In this document: positions 27,812 through 36,000 of the stretch, in pieces | How the letters are laid out: the number at the start of each line of letters is the position of its first letter | Numbering within the stretch: position 1 is the first letter of the stretch | Origin: Nothopassalora personata | Lineage: Eukaryota > Ascomycota > Dothideomycetes > Mycosphaerellales > Mycosphaerellaceae | Length of the DNA: 64,000 nucleotides | NCBI GenBank assembly: GCA_033816765.1 | Contig: CM066290.1 | Coordinates: 3,534,001 to 3,598,000, forward strand | Reading direction: 5' to 3' | Made by a program: the position numbers and the translations under genes | Notes under the pieces: model-generated | What the model was told of the DNA's origin: nothing | Database searches by the model: none | Seen by the model: the letters and a program-made list of their open reading frames with translations, nothing else

Positions 27812-28063
27812 GATGGCGATGGTGTAAAGGATTGTTTCGACTTGATCTGATGGCTGCTCTTCTGTCGATCAGGCAGCCACGGTCCTATGCAGTACGTGAG
27901 GAAGTCGTGCGGTGTCCCATCGAAGCCGACAGCGGATGGGTTGTGAGGGGTTTACAACATGACGTCGTCGTGTGCATTACCAAACATCCATGACTTTCTC
28001 CATCATGGTGGTGGTGGTCATATACCTGAGTCCAAACCGCCATCGCGATCACGCGCACGCACA
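27812..28063. other. Host sequence up to the virus-like junction
   Basis: This contains the promoter side of the epimerase-like gene and then sequence with no gene. GC content and codon style change abruptly near 28064, which I take as the left junction of the virus-like block. Confidence 0.5.
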
Positions 28064-28064
28064 C

Positions 28065-28138
28065 GTTGAAAACTCGGCCGCGAACTTGTTCGTGCCCACG
28101 AGCGCGGTCATCAGCTCGAACGTGTGCCCGGCGTCGGC
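28065..28138 (-). pseudogene. Truncated virus-like coding fragment at left junction
   Basis: On the minus strand the sequence reads ADAGHTFELMTALVGTNKF and a few more residues with the same codon style as the polymerase gene. It then runs out at the junction near 28064, and upstream it meets a stop in the same frame. It is too short to name. It supports the view that the insertion is a fragment of something longer. Confidence 0.4.
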
Positions 28139-28173
28139 AGCTTAGGCCTGGGCAGAGGCGCCCGGACGCGACT

Positions 28174-28440
28174 ATGATCGAGCACACAATCGCGCACGCG
28201 TTCCGGACCGTCTACTCGGTCAGGGAGAGGATCATGAGCTACCTCGGGGCCTCGTCCTTGTCCGCGTTCTGCTGTGCGTTCGAGCTCGAGCTCTCGGACA
28301 TGGAGAAGCGTGTGTACCTGAACTCGATCATGGACATGCCCGAGGTCTCGATCCCACTGGCGACAAGCAGACGAGCACGTGCTCGTAGACGACCAAAACC
28401 ACGCTCTCGAGCACGACCGCGTGCGCGACGACGCTCTTAG
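28174..28440 (+). CDS. Small F-box-like frame in the virus-like block
   Basis: From the ATG at 28174 the frame encodes about 88 residues. The first 60 (VRERIMSYLGASSLSAF, then ELELSDMEKRVYLNSIMDM) show a pattern like an F-box: a short helix, I-x-x-Y-L, then small and hydrophobic residues. The codon style matches the neighbouring virus-like genes. The last 25 codons are Arg-rich and look like run-on into a non-coding inverted sequence, so the true end may be missing. F-box-like proteins are common in large DNA viruses, where they redirect ubiquitination, but this match is weak. It lies 3' of the polymerase, tail to tail. Confidence 0.35.
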   Translation: MIEHTIAHAFRTVYSVRERIMSYLGASSLSAFCCAFELELSDMEKRVYLNSIMDMPEVSIPLATSRRARARRRPKPRSRARPRARRRS

Positions 28441-28465
28441 TCCTCAACACGCTCGGGCTCACGTG

Positions 28466-30835
28466 CTACTTCCTGCCCCTGTTCATGCTCCTCCTCGACT
28501 CGTAGATGAACAGCAGCTGCGAGACCGTGCCCAAGCCCACGGGCACGATCACGGAGTCGATGGCGCTGGCGATCCTCCTCGCGACCCACTTCTTGCTCAC
28601 GTCCGACGCCTTGACGCCGATCCCGATCAGGATGCTCCTCTTCTTCAGGTTGTTGTCGACGTACGTGATGTGCGGCTGGGCGTTGATCTTGACCTCGGCC
28701 ACCTGCGCGCTCACAGGCAGCTTCCCGTTCTGCAACGCCCTCATGATCCCGCTCACGATCTTGATCAGCCTCTCGGTCTTGTCCGTCTCCGAGAACGAGC
28801 CGTTGAGCACGAACATCACCTCCTTCAAGGCGTACTTCACGATGGGGAGCGCGTCCTTCTTCACGATCGCCAACCCCTTCGTCTCCAGGCTGCCGTCCCA
28901 GTTCACGGCCTCGTACTTCTTCTTGGCCGAGATCACGATCGACGAGTAGTTCCCCTTGATGTCCGCGCCCACCTCTGCGAACACGGTCCCCCTCGTGGCC
29001 TCCTCGATGGCCCTCTTCACCTTCATGCCCGCAGTCTCGCATGCCAGCTCGCTCCTGAGCCCGACCCAGACGAAGATCGAGTCCGTGTCGCCGTAGATCA
29101 CCTCGAACCCGCACCACTCCGCGCTCCTGATCATGAGCTTGACGTAGTACCTGGCGAGGTACGTGACGATGGCCGCGCACGTCTTCGAGCTGATGGCCCC
29201 GTGCCTGCTCCCCATCACGCCGTAGACGCTGACCGTGAGCAGCTTGTTCGACCAGGCCGCGACGTCGTCCCCCTTCGCCTTCGCCCTCTTGCGCCCGATG
29301 ATGAGCATGTCTAAGAGCGAGCTCAACATCGAGTCCTTGCTCCTCCTCACGCACATGAAGTCGCTCGCGGTCCTCATCAAGACTAGGTCCTCGTGCTCGA
29401 CCACGTCGTCCTCCACCATCCCCGCCAGAACGTGATCGACATCGCGATCGAGCTTGGCGGCGAGTCCCGACGGGCTGGACGACGAGTAGCAGCTGTCGAT
29501 GAAGACCCCGATCTTCGACATGATCGAGCCGTACAACGAGTTCCCGTCGATGACGATGACGCCCTTGTAGCACCCGGGCTTGGGCTCGAGCACGAAGCCG
29601 CCCTCGAACTCCTTCTCGTCCGCGTCCGAGCTCCTGCTCAGGTCCAAGCACATGTTCATCGACATGGCCCTGGACATCTCGAGGCAGTGGACCATGTACC
29701 CGGTGTTGCCCCCGATGGCGTCCCAGATCGGGCTCCTGGACGTGCCTGCGAGCGCGAAGTACCTCTCGCACATCCTCATCTTCTTGGCCAGGAGCGCGTG
29801 CAGGTCCGAGTCCCTGGCGTTGTAGATGAGCATGTCCGTGACGTCGTACGAGTCCGAGTTCTCGATCATCATCTCGTCCGCGTCCAACTTCGAGGGCAGG
29901 TCCATCCTCGAGGCCAGGTACGCGAGCCCGATCGAGTTCCAGTCCTTCCTCTGGTACTTGTCCACGTCGTACATCGAGTCCACGAACGAGACCCCGTTCG
30001 GCAACCTCCAGTAGACCGCCTCCCCGGTGTTGCCCAGCCTCCTGTCCTCGAACGTGCTGTTGATCCCGTTGACCATCGCGGAATGGGTCGCGAGCCACTG
30101 CAGGTCGAAGCCGAAGCCGTTGTGGATGTTCACGAAGTCGGGGCTCAGCATGTTTAGGATCTCGAACGTCTTCACGACCGCGTTGGCGCTCGACCCCGCC
30201 TTGACGAACACGGGCTTCCTCCCGTTGTCGAGCTTCGTCTCCCTGTGGAACCCGAACGTGTAGATGCAGTAGCACAAGTCGGGGACCTCGTCGTTGAACC
30301 AGGCCCCGTTCGAGATCGTAATGCTGATGAGGTCGTCGTGCGGGAGCGGCATGTTGCCCTTCCTCGCGAACGTGCTCACCTCGATGTCCAGGCCCACGAT
30401 GAAGAACGGGGGCGCCGTGGCGGCCGGGATGGTGCCCATGCCCCCGCCCGAGCCCGGGCCGAAGCCCGCGGCCGAGCACAGGCGCAGGAGCCAGGACTCG
30501 TTCGTGCTCGAGGGGATGAGCGCCACCTTGGACCCGGGCATGTCCGCGTCCACGTTGAGGACCACGCCGCTGGGCACGTCCACGCTGATGTCCGCCAACA
30601 CGATCATCCTCTCGTTCCCCCGCCCCATCCTGAACGAGACGCCGTACACGCACACAGTCCCGATCTGGGACGGGATCCTGGACACGCTGTCGATCCAGCT
30701 CGAGATGATGACCCAGCCCGCGTCCATGAGCCTCCTCATGTCGTAGTTGTCGCGCTTGTCCACGAGCTTGCACAGGCTGATCTCCTCGCTGATGCACGGG
30801 AGCTTGGTGATGATCGGGGGCGTGAGCAAGGGCAT
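28466..30835 (-). CDS. B-family DNA polymerase, virus-like
   Basis: An intact frame of 789 residues from the ATG at 30835 (the frame is open to 30856, the numbering used here). The 3'-5' exonuclease motifs are all present: GLDIEVS (Asp157/Glu159), NIHNGFGFD (243-251) and YNARDSD (345-351). The polymerase motifs are also present: VIVIDGNSLYGSIM (433-446, motif A), NKLLTVSVYGVMGS (motif B, about 537-550), YGDTDSIFV (588-596, motif C), KKKY (645-648), and ETKGLAIVKKDALPIV in the thumb. The last two favour an RNA/DNA-primed enzyme over the protein-primed polymerases of Polintons and linear plasmids. In motif A the usual Pro after SLY is Gly. There are no stops, no introns and no RIP. It should synthesise and proofread the element's DNA. 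Cellular fungal polymerases delta, epsilon and zeta are much longer. Confidence 0.93.
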   Translation of the reverse strand: MPLLTPPIITKLPCISEEISLCKLVDKRDNYDMRRLMDAGWVIISSWIDSVSRIPSQIGTVCVYGVSFRMGRGNERMIVLADISVDVPSGVVLNVDADMPGSKVALIPSSTNESWLLRLCSAAGFGPGSGGGMGTIPAATAPPFFIVGLDIEVSTFARKGNMPLPHDDLISITISNGAWFNDEVPDLCYCIYTFGFHRETKLDNGRKPVFVKAGSSANAVVKTFEILNMLSPDFVNIHNGFGFDLQWLATHSAMVNGINSTFEDRRLGNTGEAVYWRLPNGVSFVDSMYDVDKYQRKDWNSIGLAYLASRMDLPSKLDADEMMIENSDSYDVTDMLIYNARDSDLHALLAKKMRMCERYFALAGTSRSPIWDAIGGNTGYMVHCLEMSRAMSMNMCLDLSRSSDADEKEFEGGFVLEPKPGCYKGVIVIDGNSLYGSIMSKIGVFIDSCYSSSSPSGLAAKLDRDVDHVLAGMVEDDVVEHEDLVLMRTASDFMCVRRSKDSMLSSLLDMLIIGRKRAKAKGDDVAAWSNKLLTVSVYGVMGSRHGAISSKTCAAIVTYLARYYVKLMIRSAEWCGFEVIYGDTDSIFVWVGLRSELACETAGMKVKRAIEEATRGTVFAEVGADIKGNYSSIVISAKKKYEAVNWDGSLETKGLAIVKKDALPIVKYALKEVMFVLNGSFSETDKTERLIKIVSGIMRALQNGKLPVSAQVAEVKINAQPHITYVDNNLKKRSILIGIGVKASDVSKKWVARRIASAIDSVIVPVGLGTVSQLLFIYESRRSMNRGRK

Positions 30836-30912
30836 GACGGTGCTCGTGGATGTCACGGTGTCCCGAACCGCGTGCGAGCGTCGCCACCTACGAGACCACG
30901 AACCCGCTCGCG
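30836..30912. promoter_or_regulatory. Compact divergent start region of polymerase and helicase genes
   Basis: The polymerase ATG (30835, minus) and the first helicase ATG (30850, plus) are only 14 bp apart. If the helicase begins at the second in-frame ATG (30913) the gap is 77 bp. Any promoter must be bidirectional and very short or overlap coding sequence, as in compact viral genomes. No motif could be identified. Confidence 0.35.
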
Positions 30913-32448
30913 ATGGAGGTCACGAGCGGCGACACAGTCGCGATCGCGCACACGGGCTTGAACATGACCGAGTCCGGCGGCGTGGTCGGGTTCAGGGACG
31001 ACTTCCCGTACTACGGCCCGCTCGCCAACAGGCTTAGGGAGCCGCACAAGAAGTTGATCGAGGACGTGCACAACCGCCGCTCCGTCGTCACGGACGGGAC
31101 CACGTTCTACTTCTACTGCGAGGGCACGGGCTGCTGGGCGCAGTTGTACTCGGGCACGGCCTCGTTCGAGCTCCTCGACATCACCAAGATCAACGCCCCG
31201 GTCAGCTACGCGAAGGCGCTCGGATGGGCGTACGCGATCTTGAAGAGGATGGCGACCCCGGTCAGGCGCGTGCACCCGAGCGTGTGCATCGGCACGTACA
31301 GGTTGGTGTTCATGCTCGAGTACCTGGAGGACCGCTACATCGTGCACTACAGGCCGCACTGGCCGGTGATCGACAACAAGGACATGGACCCGATGTACAA
31401 CAGGATCTACTCGTTCGTCGTGAGCCCGATCATCCTCCCGGCCCCGTCCGTCTGCCCGTTCAAGGTCACGTGCGAGCATGACGACCAGGTCATCAACAAG
31501 ATCCTGCTCCCGTTGAGGTACGACCAGAAGCTCGACTTCCTGTGGAGGATGGGGAAGGCGATCATCAGCCCGGTCAGGAGCCCCTCCGTCATCGTGTTGT
31601 ACGGCAAGGACGGGCACGAGGGCAAGACCGAGTTAGCCAAGGCGGTGTCGAGGATCTTCGGGGACGCAGTGGAGTGGGTGAGCGAGGACTTGTTCGGGGC
31701 CAAGACCGCGTGGCCCGATCCCGAGACGGTCATGCACCTGTGCGAGAAGAGGATCCTGATCTGCGACGAGTGCAAGATCGACGAGGGGTTCTCGTACAAC
31801 AACATCAAGAGGTGGACGTCCGAGGCCCCGATCTCCATGAAGGGCTTGACCGGATACCTGTCCCAGACCGCGATCGTCATCTCGAACCACATCCCCTTCT
31901 CGGACAGGGCCGGGATCAACAACAGCATCGGGAGGCGACTCGTGATCTACCACATGAAGAAGAAGATGAGCTCGTTCAAGGCCCTCGACAGGTCGGAGAT
32001 CACGGGACCCGTCGCCTTGAGGTTCATCTCGCTCTGCATCTCGTTCGCCAGCGCCTACGAGTCTCCACCCACGTCCCTGCCCATCGCCCTATACTCGTTC
32101 TACCGCAAGAACGTGAACAAGATCACGGCCGGGCTCGCGTACGACGTCGGGGCCTCGAAGAGGGAGGCGATCGCGGCTACGTGCGCTATGGCGATAAGGC
32201 TCGGGGTGACGGCTAGGAAGCTGTACTCGGCGTTCCATGCGTCGTCGCCCGCGCTCGTCGATATGCCCGAGATCGGGTTCCCGTATATTAGGTCGATCAG
32301 AGCCCCGCTACCGAAGCTAACCGAGCACGGGAAGGAGGTCGTAGAGAAGAGGGCGACCGCCAACGTAGGTAGGTACTCGATCCAGGCCCTAATCGAGAAC
32401 GGGATTACGATGTCGAGCCTAGACATACTTAAGATAATAAACGCGTAG
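30850..32448 (+). CDS. Superfamily 3 (D5-like) helicase, virus-like
   Basis: 532 residues, intact. The N-terminal half (1-235) is of unknown fold and contains conserved-looking aromatic patches (TFYFYCEGTGCWAQLY, RYIVHYRPHWPVID). It may correspond to a D5_N or primase-associated region, but no clear primase catalytic Asp pattern is seen. The C-terminal half is an SF3 AAA+ ATPase: Walker A YGKDGHEGKTEL (251-262), Walker B RILICDEC (301-308), motif C IVISNHIPF (342-350), and an arginine-finger segment GRRLVIYH (361-368). SF3 helicases unwind origins of DNA viruses and virus-like replicons. It is divergent to the polymerase. TA-rich codons begin to appear after about 32.1 kb, marking the edge of the RIPped interval. 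The TAG stop could itself be mutated, but codon style ends there. Confidence 0.88.
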   Translation: MSRCPEPRASVATYETTNPLAMEVTSGDTVAIAHTGLNMTESGGVVGFRDDFPYYGPLANRLREPHKKLIEDVHNRRSVVTDGTTFYFYCEGTGCWAQLYSGTASFELLDITKINAPVSYAKALGWAYAILKRMATPVRRVHPSVCIGTYRLVFMLEYLEDRYIVHYRPHWPVIDNKDMDPMYNRIYSFVVSPIILPAPSVCPFKVTCEHDDQVINKILLPLRYDQKLDFLWRMGKAIISPVRSPSVIVLYGKDGHEGKTELAKAVSRIFGDAVEWVSEDLFGAKTAWPDPETVMHLCEKRILICDECKIDEGFSYNNIKRWTSEAPISMKGLTGYLSQTAIVISNHIPFSDRAGINNSIGRRLVIYHMKKKMSSFKALDRSEITGPVALRFISLCISFASAYESPPTSLPIALYSFYRKNVNKITAGLAYDVGASKREAIAATCAMAIRLGVTARKLYSAFHASSPALVDMPEIGFPYIRSIRAPLPKLTEHGKEVVEKRATANVGRYSIQALIENGITMSSLDILKIINA

Positions 32449-32489
32449 ACGTCCGTACACACGAGCAAAACACGAGGTCGGACGCGTAC

Positions 32490-32966
32490 GTGTCTACGTA
32501 CAGGACTATCGGCGTAATTATAAACACGAACAGGAACACGAGGGAGACCGCGATTATAAACTGCTACGTGTGTATAGACTCGGTAATCTACGCGGACGCG
32601 TCGACGAGCGTATATATGTTAAGCAACCCGAACAAGTACGGCATCGTATACACGTTCGTAAGTACGACCTGTAGCAAGTACAAGAACAAGATCGAGCGCG
32701 TAAACTAGGGCGTAATCGGGAATAGGACGGTAATCGGGACTATATTCGTGTTTAACTGCTCGGCCTATAAGGAGTTCTCGAAGATGTTCGGGGTCTACCC
32801 CGCGATCATAGGCGGGAACATGCACACTATCGTGCACACGGACGTAGTAATAAACACTATCCCCTCTACGCACGTGTTGTACTCCACGGCTAGGGGCGAG
32901 AACGGGAACGTAATCCTAAGGCCGCACGAGGACGGGGACTTCTTCTCGCTTATAAACGTAAGGTAA
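32490..32966 (+). pseudogene. Small unknown gene of the virus-like block, one in-frame TAG
   Basis: One frame runs from about 32490 to the TAA at 32966 with a single internal TAG at 32706. No ATG is found at the expected 5' end: the frame opens with GTG, and the first ATG is at 32618. The roughly 158-residue product has beta-rich character (RTIGVIINTNRNTRETAIIN, TIFVFNCSAYKEFSKMFG) and no family I recognise. Codons show CpA-to-TpA change. It follows the helicase by about 40 bp and runs in the same direction. Confidence 0.5.
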
Positions 32967-33076
32967 ACACCGTTACGAGCGCGTACGGGAACACGACCCT
33001 AATCGTCAAAAAGGCACGAAGTAGGTCTAGTACGTAACACGCGACGAAGTACTAGAAGACGATCGGCTATAGCAAC

Positions 33077-35525
33077 ATGTCCGACAACACGCTTAGGAAC
33101 ACGAGCTCGCCTACGAACATAGACGACGCCGAGGAGAGGAAGAGGATTATCGCCGAGGGCTTCGGCGCGAGCGACGACGACGACGCTAGCGAGGGCGAGG
33201 GCTCGGTCGCTAGCGGAACCGCGGGTGCGGTTAGGTCTAGGGTCTAGAACAGGGCCGCGTTAAACAGGCTAAAGAACAATAGGCAGTAGAACACGCCCTA
33301 GCCCTAGTCCCCGCTCCCGACTAGGAACACGAGTAGCAGCGTAGTCGCATCCTCGGGTAAGCCTACGAACCCGAGTAACAACCGGCTTATAGGCGGGGTC
33401 GATAGGAAGAGCGGGAACGGGATCTAGGTCGAGGGCTCGAACATCGGCTCGAAGGCGTCGGAGCCCGAGTAGACGTAGGAGGACATATAGGCGATCGCGA
33501 ACGCGGAGGGCAAGAGGCTTAACACCGTGCTAGTTAACGACACTAGGCGTAGCGAGCCGGACCCGGAGAGGAAGTACCTTACGCGCGGGGCGAACGACTC
33601 GATCGTAACTAGGGCCCCGGCGATCCTCCCGAACCCGAGCTATAGCGAGTATAGCCTCGGGATCGGGGAGGTAAAGCCGGACGAGAAGACGGGCAAGTCT
33701 AAGCTCTACACCGACATCGTAATAAAGGGGCCGGACTAGTTACTAAGCTAGTAGACGAGCAAGTTCGTAGTAATAGAGGGCGTCCCGGACAATATCTTAG
33801 ACAAGCCCCCGAGGATAGTTAACGGTAGGCCGGAGCGCAGGATCGGGCACGACTTCGCGCGCATCGGCTTGCCTAAGTTGTGCTTCGCGCCTATCTTCGA
33901 GACCCTAAAGACGAGCATGCCCTCGATCCTAGACTCGGTCTCGCGCACACCCGGCTACTACTAGTTAAACGCGTCCTAGGGCGTTAGCGGCAGCCCGGGC
34001 AACTTTATCTATAGGGGCGAGGGCGGAGTCTAGCGCAACACCTATAGGCTGTACGAGGCCATAAAGATGCTCGGCGGGATAAGCGGCTACGGCTCGGCGT
34101 CGATCGCGGTATCGGTCGGGAACGAGTTTAGGATAGAGGGCGGGAAGCTAGTCCCGGACGCGGGCAAGTACGAGTTAAGCATTAAGATCCATAACTTCTT
34201 CCTAAGCAAGAGGGTGTCGTACTATAGCCCCCCGCAGTCGTCCGCAACCGGGTTCGAGGTCGACGAGGACATCTTTAACGACGCCGAGATCCTAGTCCAG
34301 AACACGGGCACGAGCTCGGCCTTCGACAGCACCGCGACGGCGTTCGGGGGCGGCGGCATAGACCCGTTCTTCGGCGCTGTCTCGGGCGTGACCTAGAACG
34401 CGGTCCCGGGCTAGAACTCACAGCAGTTGCTCTACTAGGACGCGCTCTCGGACACACACTAGTACACGCATACGCACAGGTACGTCGTCGGGTTCTTGCT
34501 CTCCAACGCATCGGCGCTCGGGTTGATGTACGCGTTTAAAAAGAGGCACGGGACCACGACTACGTACTCGAGCGTAAGCTAGTACCTCGTTATAGACGAC
34601 CCTATAAGCGCGAGGATCGACACGATCGAGTGGAGGAAGAGGACTATGATCGACAGTAGCAGCGTAAGCGCCGGTAAGCACACGATTAGAAGCAAGTGCA
34701 TAGACGCGACGATAAACCTAATAAGGCGCTTATACGCTATCTCGGACAGGACCACGTACCCGGACGTCTGCAGGGGCATGCTCCTAATCGCCAACTCGAG
34801 TCTACTCAAGGTCGTGTGCGTGGGTATCAGCCCGTACGAGAACGGTATCCTGCCCCCCTTCGCGACCGCGCTGGCGTACTCGCCTAGGAAGTGCATCGGG
34901 GTCACGCCTTCAGTCCAGGTGCTGAGCTAGGTTATGTCCCTCTGCGCGATAGAGATTAAGGACAGGTACGCTAACAAGAACGCGGACTCGGGTATTACTA
35001 GGTACCTAACTAGGGACGAGTACACGTCCAGATTCGCGATAATGCTTAGGTGCTCGTACTCGTGCGTAGAGGCAGGCGTGGCCTTCGTCAACTGCTCGCC
35101 CGTAATCACGAACATGGTCTCGAAGACGTGCCTAAGCAGGTCGTTGTTCTCGGAGTGGATCGCCAACATCGTCCTAATCCACTTCATGCACGGGCGCAAG
35201 CTCACGATCGTGTCTATGGGCTCGGCCGCCGACAGGACCATCGACCAGGCCGTGGGCTCGTACCCCACCGTGCACTCGAGCATGAGCCTAATCAAGACCA
35301 TGAACCCGGCCGCCATCGCGCGCATGAGCGTGACTAAGAACGAGTCCGAGAGCATGATCCCTAACGCGCTCACGCCCGCGGAGATGCTCATCGACTCGAT
35401 CGTGGGCACGAGCAGAAGCGTAGACCCGAAGACGGGCTTCCACTGGATCAGGTACTAGGACGCGACGTTGAGGACGTTCATCGGCACGGACACGATCAGA
35501 GGCCTGGTCCTGAGGCTCGTTGACC
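33077..35525 (+). pseudogene. Large virus-like gene with UDG-like C-terminus, 21 in-frame TAGs
   Basis: One reading frame runs from the ATG at 33077 to beyond 35458 without a frameshift. It is interrupted by 21 TAG codons and, in my reading, no TAA or TGA. Residues 1-120 are acidic and low-complexity. Residues 120-500 are a region of unknown fold. The last 250 residues resemble the uracil-DNA glycosylase fold: a strand ending in GISPY (34823-34837, where active enzymes have GxDPY), ALAYSPRKC, AFVNCSPVI, LTIVSMGSAA and HSSMS (35273-35287, where active enzymes have HPSPL). Substitution at both catalytic loops suggests a non-enzymatic, structural role if ever expressed. The frame keeps viral codon style past the last TAG to about 35525, where it is cut by the junction. 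It cannot encode the full protein as it stands. Confidence 0.7.
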
Positions 35526-35535
35526 ACGCACCCGA

Positions 35536-36000
35536 CCGTCTCCACGATCACGTCCGAGTGCGGTCTCCAGTACGGAAATCATCACCAAAAGGAATTGCAC
35601 TGTCTGCACATGTCTTTGCCCGGAACGCGTCACTCTCCCTGACCTGCCACGATGGTGGTCATGACCTGCAGCCAGCGTGTTCGGGACGTGTGAGCAGATT
35701 CTGCTTTGGACTAAATGCCAGCCTGATCAGTCCGCAGGTACTGCTGGACGCGGCACGCTCTCCTCCTGTTACTACGTGGATGTGGTTCTGACGATGGGAA
35801 AACATTATGCCGTGCAAAATGCGTTGACGCGAGGCCAGCGCAGTGGCGATGCGGTCTTGGCACTGGAGAGGTACCACTTTCGTTGTTTCGATGTCACGAT
35901 CCAAGCTTACAGTGCTGATTTCGAAAAGTCTATGGGCAGCCCCCATTTTCGTCTATGGTCAGCCCCCATGCTGAGTCATTGTTGCACATAACTATATCAT
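35536..36000. other. Un-RIPped spacer between virus-like block and repeat nest
   Basis: CpA and TpG are plentiful, as in the host genes. No gene is recognised. A short direct repeat sharing GCAGCCCCCAT/TCAGCCCCCAT lies near 35932-35971. Confidence 0.4.

Follow-up and report, generated by a model that had tools for sequence, protein, structure and literature searches.

A block of foreign DNA lies at about 28054-35544 of a 64-kb stretch of the Nothopassalora personata genome ("the window" below means this whole stretch, which is on contig C4 of a 54.5-Mb, 40-contig genome). The block is probably a truncated fragment, now endogenized, of a small double-stranded DNA (dsDNA) element, most likely a virus, from an apparently undescribed lineage of filamentous ascomycetes. 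It carries an intact gene for a B-family DNA polymerase (PolB), an intact gene for a D5-type superfamily 3 (SF3) helicase and the remains of a gene whose product most resembles uracil-DNA glycosylases (UDGs). Host DNA stands on either side, the block is truncated and decayed, and repeat-induced point mutation (RIP) has acted within it. We regard the parent as belonging to a new lineage, though the replicon is of a familiar kind, and it has many relatives in public sequences.

Results

The polymerase gene occupies 28466-30835 on the reverse strand. Its frame is open to 30856, which gives 796 codons from a GTG, and the first ATG, at 30835, agrees with the nearest relative, the 789-aa P0001; the intact protein has ~789 aa. 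Pfam matched DNA_pol_B with an E-value of 2.9e-32 and, weakly, DNA_pol_B_exo1 (0.029); no other family matched at E≤1, including the protein-primed DNA_pol_B_2. Among the relatives, P0033 has PF03175 next to PF00136. In an alignment of the window protein with 36 of its 44 relatives (P0014, P0031 and P0039-P0044, which are fragmentary or fused models, were excluded), D157/E159, N246/D251, Y345/D349 and D437/S440/L441/Y442 are invariant in all 37 rows, as are K538, YGDTDS at residues 588-593 of the 796-codon frame (29078-29095, reverse strand) and KKY at 646-648. We take these residues to have the usual exonuclease and polymerase roles. The first-pass annotation had called this a complete B-family polymerase with proofreading motifs that is not of the protein-primed type, and the intact frame, the Pfam matches and the invariant residues bear it out. 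With the family profile, archaeal PolB, Pol alpha and Pol delta outscore the herpesvirus polymerase (best 60 of 110 matches), and identity to host and archaeal-type PolB is 22-29% over partial length (23-29% for the host polymerases). As a separate observation, an N-terminal NADAR domain (PF08719) is fused to PolB in the relatives P0032 (E 1.3e-47), P0034 and P0042; we know of no other polymerase with this fusion.

The polymerase does not group with ordinary fungal chromosomal genes. In a maximum-likelihood tree of 52 rows (the window, 38 of the 44 relatives, 5 archaeal-type, 4 host and 4 phage-type polymerases; P0014, P0031, P0039, P0040, P0043 and P0044 excluded), the window and the 38 relatives form one clade with a Shimodaira-Hasegawa-like approximate likelihood ratio test (SH-aLRT) support of 100 and a stem of 5.08; the tree was a quick one, with long outgroup branches and SH-aLRT as its sole support measure. 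The nearest relative within the clade is P0001, with 79% identity to the window polymerase. The four host polymerases, which we labelled alpha, delta, zeta and epsilon, fall outside this 39-row clade, as do the archaeal-type and phage-type enzymes.

The helicase gene, an intact open frame of 532 codons, lies at 30850-32448 on the forward strand. Relatives place its start, as predicted from sequence, most likely at the ATG at 30913; with the polymerase starting at 30835, the two genes would stand head to head with 77 b between them. The protein matched NCBIfam TIGR01613 (E 1.1e-10; 40.9 bits, below the family cut-off of 108.7), a PHROG primase (E 2e-8) and, below cut-off, Pfam DUF5906 (0.019). 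A helicase profile found nothing convincing among Protein Data Bank (PDB) sequences, and the D5-type assignment was settled by fold. Fold comparison gave the fold common to D5, African swine fever virus (ASFV) and P4 helicases, that of an SF3 AAA+ protein; residues 252-260 (31603-31629, forward strand) form a loop that we take to be Walker A. The helicase half matched the D5 type and the primase half is absent from the 532-aa frame. Among eukaryotic viruses the nearest folds are those of ASFV and poxvirus D5. The divergent SF3 helicase recognized at first pass is therefore confirmed by its frame, its profile matches and its fold.

To the right of the helicase the genes are broken. The N-terminal part of the UDG-fold protein, at 34583-35544 on the forward strand, contains two TAG stops and is cut by the right edge of the block; positions 34613-35545 align at 69% identity with a 760-aa relative, over residues 8-318 of the latter, and ~310 N-terminal residues remain. 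Its 14 relatives are 744-817 aa long. The UDG fold is less firmly supported than that of the helicase: with moderate confidence, the protein most resembles UDGs over ~190 residues, with a motif order that is alike by eye, and beyond this fold the chain continues in a long tail, made up of helical and low-confidence sequence. No match was found in Pfam or with a profile against the PDB. The catalytic residues of family 1 UDGs are the Asp of GQDPYH and the His of HPSPLS. Placed by eye, both are replaced in all 14 relatives, where the loops read GISPYE-type, with S, N or K, and NPA, and also in the window pieces. The UDG-like gene of the earlier reading thus stands in its fold and its truncation, but it has lost both catalytic residues and holds two stops. 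Two further broken frames, absent from that gene list, lie between it and the helicase on the forward strand: a small one at 32490-32966 with one TAG, at 32706, and a middle one at 33056-34540 with 18 TAG stops. Neither gave a family worth naming in Pfam or PHROGs. By eye, part of the middle frame resembles the tail fused to a Cryomyces helicase model (P0086).

The composition of this region is that of RIP. The TpA/ApT ratio is 1.45-2.56 in 32001-35000, against 0.14-0.82 in 28001-32000 and 0.76 in 35001-35500, and (CpA+TpG)/(ApC+GpT) is 0.35-0.59 in 32001-35000, 0.85-1.03 in 28001-32000 and 1.24-1.56 in the left flank from 26001. Because the second index is lower in the left part of the block than in the left flank, slight RIP there is possible. 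All 21 stops in the frame 33056-35545 are TAG, as is expected from C-to-T mutation of CAG.

Two further places in the genome match the block, both on contig C6. The first, C6 64465-67687, matches window 32002-34382 (88%) and 34667-35543 (83%), and with a relative as the query the match extends to ~68800. The second, C6 347031-349507, is a copy of the polymerase with 76% identity to window 28428-30908. Since TpA/ApT is high only in 32001-35000, RIP in the window falls inside the stretch common to the first C6 copy, the last 500 b of this homology being barely mutated. Between the window and the C6 polymerase copy, 589 of 2477 aligned bases differ: 519 are C/G in the window and T/A in the copy, 37 are reverse transitions and 33 are transversions, which leaves a non-RIP-type divergence of ~2.8%. 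RIP normally hits both partners of a repeat. Nearly all that sets the C6 polymerase copy apart is RIP-type change, yet the polymerase gene in the window has stayed intact. Repeated capture from an almost identical source is therefore probable, most simply with the C6 copy degraded before the window copy came in. The asymmetry could also stem from a lost partner, from a strain cross or from nearby C6 repeats out of which RIP spread (339-350 kb of C6 is RIP-affected). The two C6 parts are complementary (the polymerase at 347 kb, the helicase end to the UDG-like gene at 64-69 kb) and thus may be one older insertion torn apart. Beside the polymerase copy, ~3 kb of heavily RIP-mutated sequence at C6:344000-347030 (L023) occurs once in the genome; it gave no convincing match to the window or to the relatives' proteins, and it perhaps holds further genes of the element.

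The GC content of the block is 0.60-0.65 (28001-32500); the sequence left of 27500 has 0.49-0.57, and that at 36-46 kb has 0.36-0.43. At the right edge, placed at 35544, similarity to both the C6 copy and the protein family stops at 35543-35545; the left edge, 28054, was placed from an 8-bp direct repeat and is unsure. The copies of this repeat (28046-28053 and 35545-35552, forward strand) may be a target-site duplication. Such a repeat at both edges arises in 0.43% of shuffles, but any common 8-mer between the two 160-b edge windows arises in 29%. No inverted repeats of at least 9 b link the edges within these 160-b windows, and the eight frames scanned with Pfam and PHROGs include no transposase or recombinase. 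The block first delimited as 28064-35535 is real, with edges nearer 28054 and 35544. Truncation was rightly noted at both ends, the right edge cutting the UDG-like gene and the left a coding-like fragment, but the right part is broken by RIP and not intact. The left fragment (28064-28440, forward strand) has, by eye, the block's codon style; it gave no Pfam match at E≤1, no second genomic copy of it was found, and most of it is left uncovered by the C6 polymerase-copy homology, which ends at 28428. It looks faintly F-box-like by eye, without Pfam support. On the other side of the block, window 36000-63500 consists of AT-rich, RIP-affected repeats, several stretches of which are also present on C6, at 70.6-75.0 kb and 339.0-339.9 kb, close to where the element's other fragments lie.

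A polymerase search returned 49 matches. With E-values of 6.3e-79 or better, 44 of them clearly belong to the family, and the other five are general archaeal-type enzymes; the helicase has at least 45 relatives, a lower bound, as the best 7998 candidates were scored. The named sources include Friedmanniomyces, Saxophila, Circinaria, Conoideocrella, Hortaea, Cryomyces and Apiospora, all Pezizomycotina, and Fusarium, Xylaria, Monosporascus, Penicillium, Curvularia, Oleoguttula and Podospora, which we take to be ascomycetes. Together with the RIP, these named sources indicate that the host, too, is a filamentous ascomycete. Nine of the 17 contigs with an organism label measure 48.6 kb-5.5 Mb and therefore represent integrated copies; the other eight, of 4.6-34.8 kb, may be integrated or free. 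None of the 64 contigs without a label exceeds 35,131 b, and among the 31 above 20 kb, 19 fall at 24.0-28.2 kb (the size recorded being that of the longest contig of each cluster). A parent genome of 24-35 kb is thus likely, yet unproven because assemblies can also stop at repeats.

Linkage of the polymerase and helicase in the relatives is less firmly supported, as it was judged from equal contig sizes and not from contig names. Contig sizes of the two genes were equal in 18 cases, including one from the named assembly of Fusarium albosuccineum, and all three genes coincided in two cases. For 17 of these pairs (a 3,568-b contig was excluded), polymerase and helicase identities to the window correlate with r 0.92, and the gene models g8908/g8910, on a 26,847-b contig of Hortaea werneckii, also bear on adjacency. 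Several fungal gene models (P0038, P0089, P0041 and P0044) look like misnamed or fused pieces of the element, an example of misnaming being "cell division control 48 variant 1" in F. albosuccineum.

Scans of IMG/VR with single proteins and with family alignments found no family member. One match there (L025, 30% over ~82 residues) was set aside since its neighbouring frames look phage-like. The polymerase alignment gave 18 pattern matches and no relatives on GTDB genome contigs. Among phage records, 77 had general PolB similarity (E≤1e-3) and none covered 80% of the query. A host Pol delta query for eukaryotic virus polymerases returned none. A search by motif pattern yielded 11 loci whose surroundings are all similar and phage-type, and four of these served as the phage-type outgroup.

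Discussion

The separate polymerase clade and the absence of a description in the literature searched agree with the earlier suggestion of an undescribed lineage. That literature was covered by title and the start of the abstract and lies largely outside subscription papers, so prior notice is possible. Gong et al. 2020 reportedly described dsDNA virus fossils in fungi. In the main text of a paper on PolB diversity, the string "fung" occurs nowhere (PMC7544198). We lean, with less assurance than for the origin of the block itself, towards a broader conclusion: that the block is a fossil of a lineage that circulates to this day, of family level or higher, made up of small dsDNA viruses (25-35 kb) of Pezizomycotina whose minimal replication core is D5 helicase, RNA-primed PolB and dead UDG. 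In Dikarya this would be the first group of dsDNA viruses, common in public sequences though missing from the virus catalogue that was scanned, and one fungal genome would have captured it repeatedly.

The free element would replicate by means of its D5-type helicase, which, as a hexamer, may unwind the origin and then power fork movement; the proofreading polymerase would extend RNA/DNA primers on both strands. Because the helicase has no primase half, these primers would come from another primase. In poxviruses the UDG D4 works together with A20, and by analogy the catalytically dead UDG-fold protein may be a polymerase-binding processivity or scaffold factor. A piece of the element's DNA was probably inserted into the chromosome, by a route that may have involved a staggered break. 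This piece is decaying, RIP having hit a part also present elsewhere in the genome.

The first-pass annotation spoke of a replication module of the type found in large DNA viruses. The set of PolB, D5 helicase and UDG fits this description, but the parent looks small (at most 35 kb). No capsid gene was seen, and the window holds ~7.5 kb of the element. For want of a capsid gene, we infer "virus" rather than "plasmid".

One reading that overlaps with ours, which leaves the phylum unfixed, places the parent on a reduced, divergent branch of the Nucleocytoviricota, on the pox/asfar side, instead of in a separate lineage. The nearest eukaryotic-virus helicase folds, those of ASFV and poxvirus D5, point that way, and the dead UDG recalls poxvirus D4; we regard this placement as possible, if unlikely. 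Slightly less probable is that the parent was a DNA plasmid of the nucleus or cytoplasm, or some other free ascomycete replicon, with its own polymerase and helicase and no particle. The identified genes are all of replication type, the 24-35 kb contigs fit a plasmid too, and IMG/VR holds no family member in our scans. However, known fungal linear plasmids use protein-primed PolB, the window polymerase matches DNA_pol_B and the family profile matches archaeal and alpha/delta polymerases, and the combination of D5-type helicase, UDG-fold partner and PolB recalls viruses. Ordinary fungal chromosomal genes or domesticated transposon genes, which the chromosomal location and two intact frames might suggest, are very improbable and already contradicted by the extreme GC content at third codon positions (0.979 in the polymerase, 0.929 in the helicase), the clade separate from the host's four polymerases, the truncated third gene and the scattered fragments. 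Assembly contamination, to which a GC content unlike either flank could point, is scarcely credible, as the earlier reading had argued, given RIP within the block and the two further fragments on a 5.7-Mb contig.

If our preferred reading of a captured virus is true, an ascomycete dsDNA virus lineage would connect the PolB/D5/UDG modules known from poxviruses and asfarviruses with several-fold smaller elements, would account for misnamed "DNA polymerase" gene models of fungal assemblies and would offer a natural experiment on RIP acting upon viral DNA. It is directly testable on the relatives' contigs in public data.

Each component of the block has a known counterpart. The polymerase is like the RNA/DNA-primed PolB enzymes (archaeal, Pol alpha/delta) in its Exo and Pol motifs and its Pfam DNA_pol_B match, and differs from them in its 22-29% identity, its separate long-stemmed clade and the N-terminal NADAR of three relatives. 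The helicase resembles the D5-type primase-helicases of poxviruses and asfarviruses and of Staphylococcus aureus pathogenicity islands (SaPI) and phage P4, at 9-15% identity in the D5, ASFV and SaPI rows, but these are ~785-962 aa long, whereas the block's family has 511-532 aa without the N-terminal primase. The third protein is like UDGs, including poxvirus D4 and the herpesvirus types, in its fold over ~190 residues and, by eye, in motif order, and unlike them in its two replaced catalytic residues and in the long tail after the fold. As a whole, the block is comparable to the endogenous asfar-like region of Rhizophagus irregularis, likewise a dsDNA virus sequence with PolB in a fungal chromosome; that region differs in spanning 1.5 Mb and in carrying five Nucleocytoviricota marker genes (PMC10640383).
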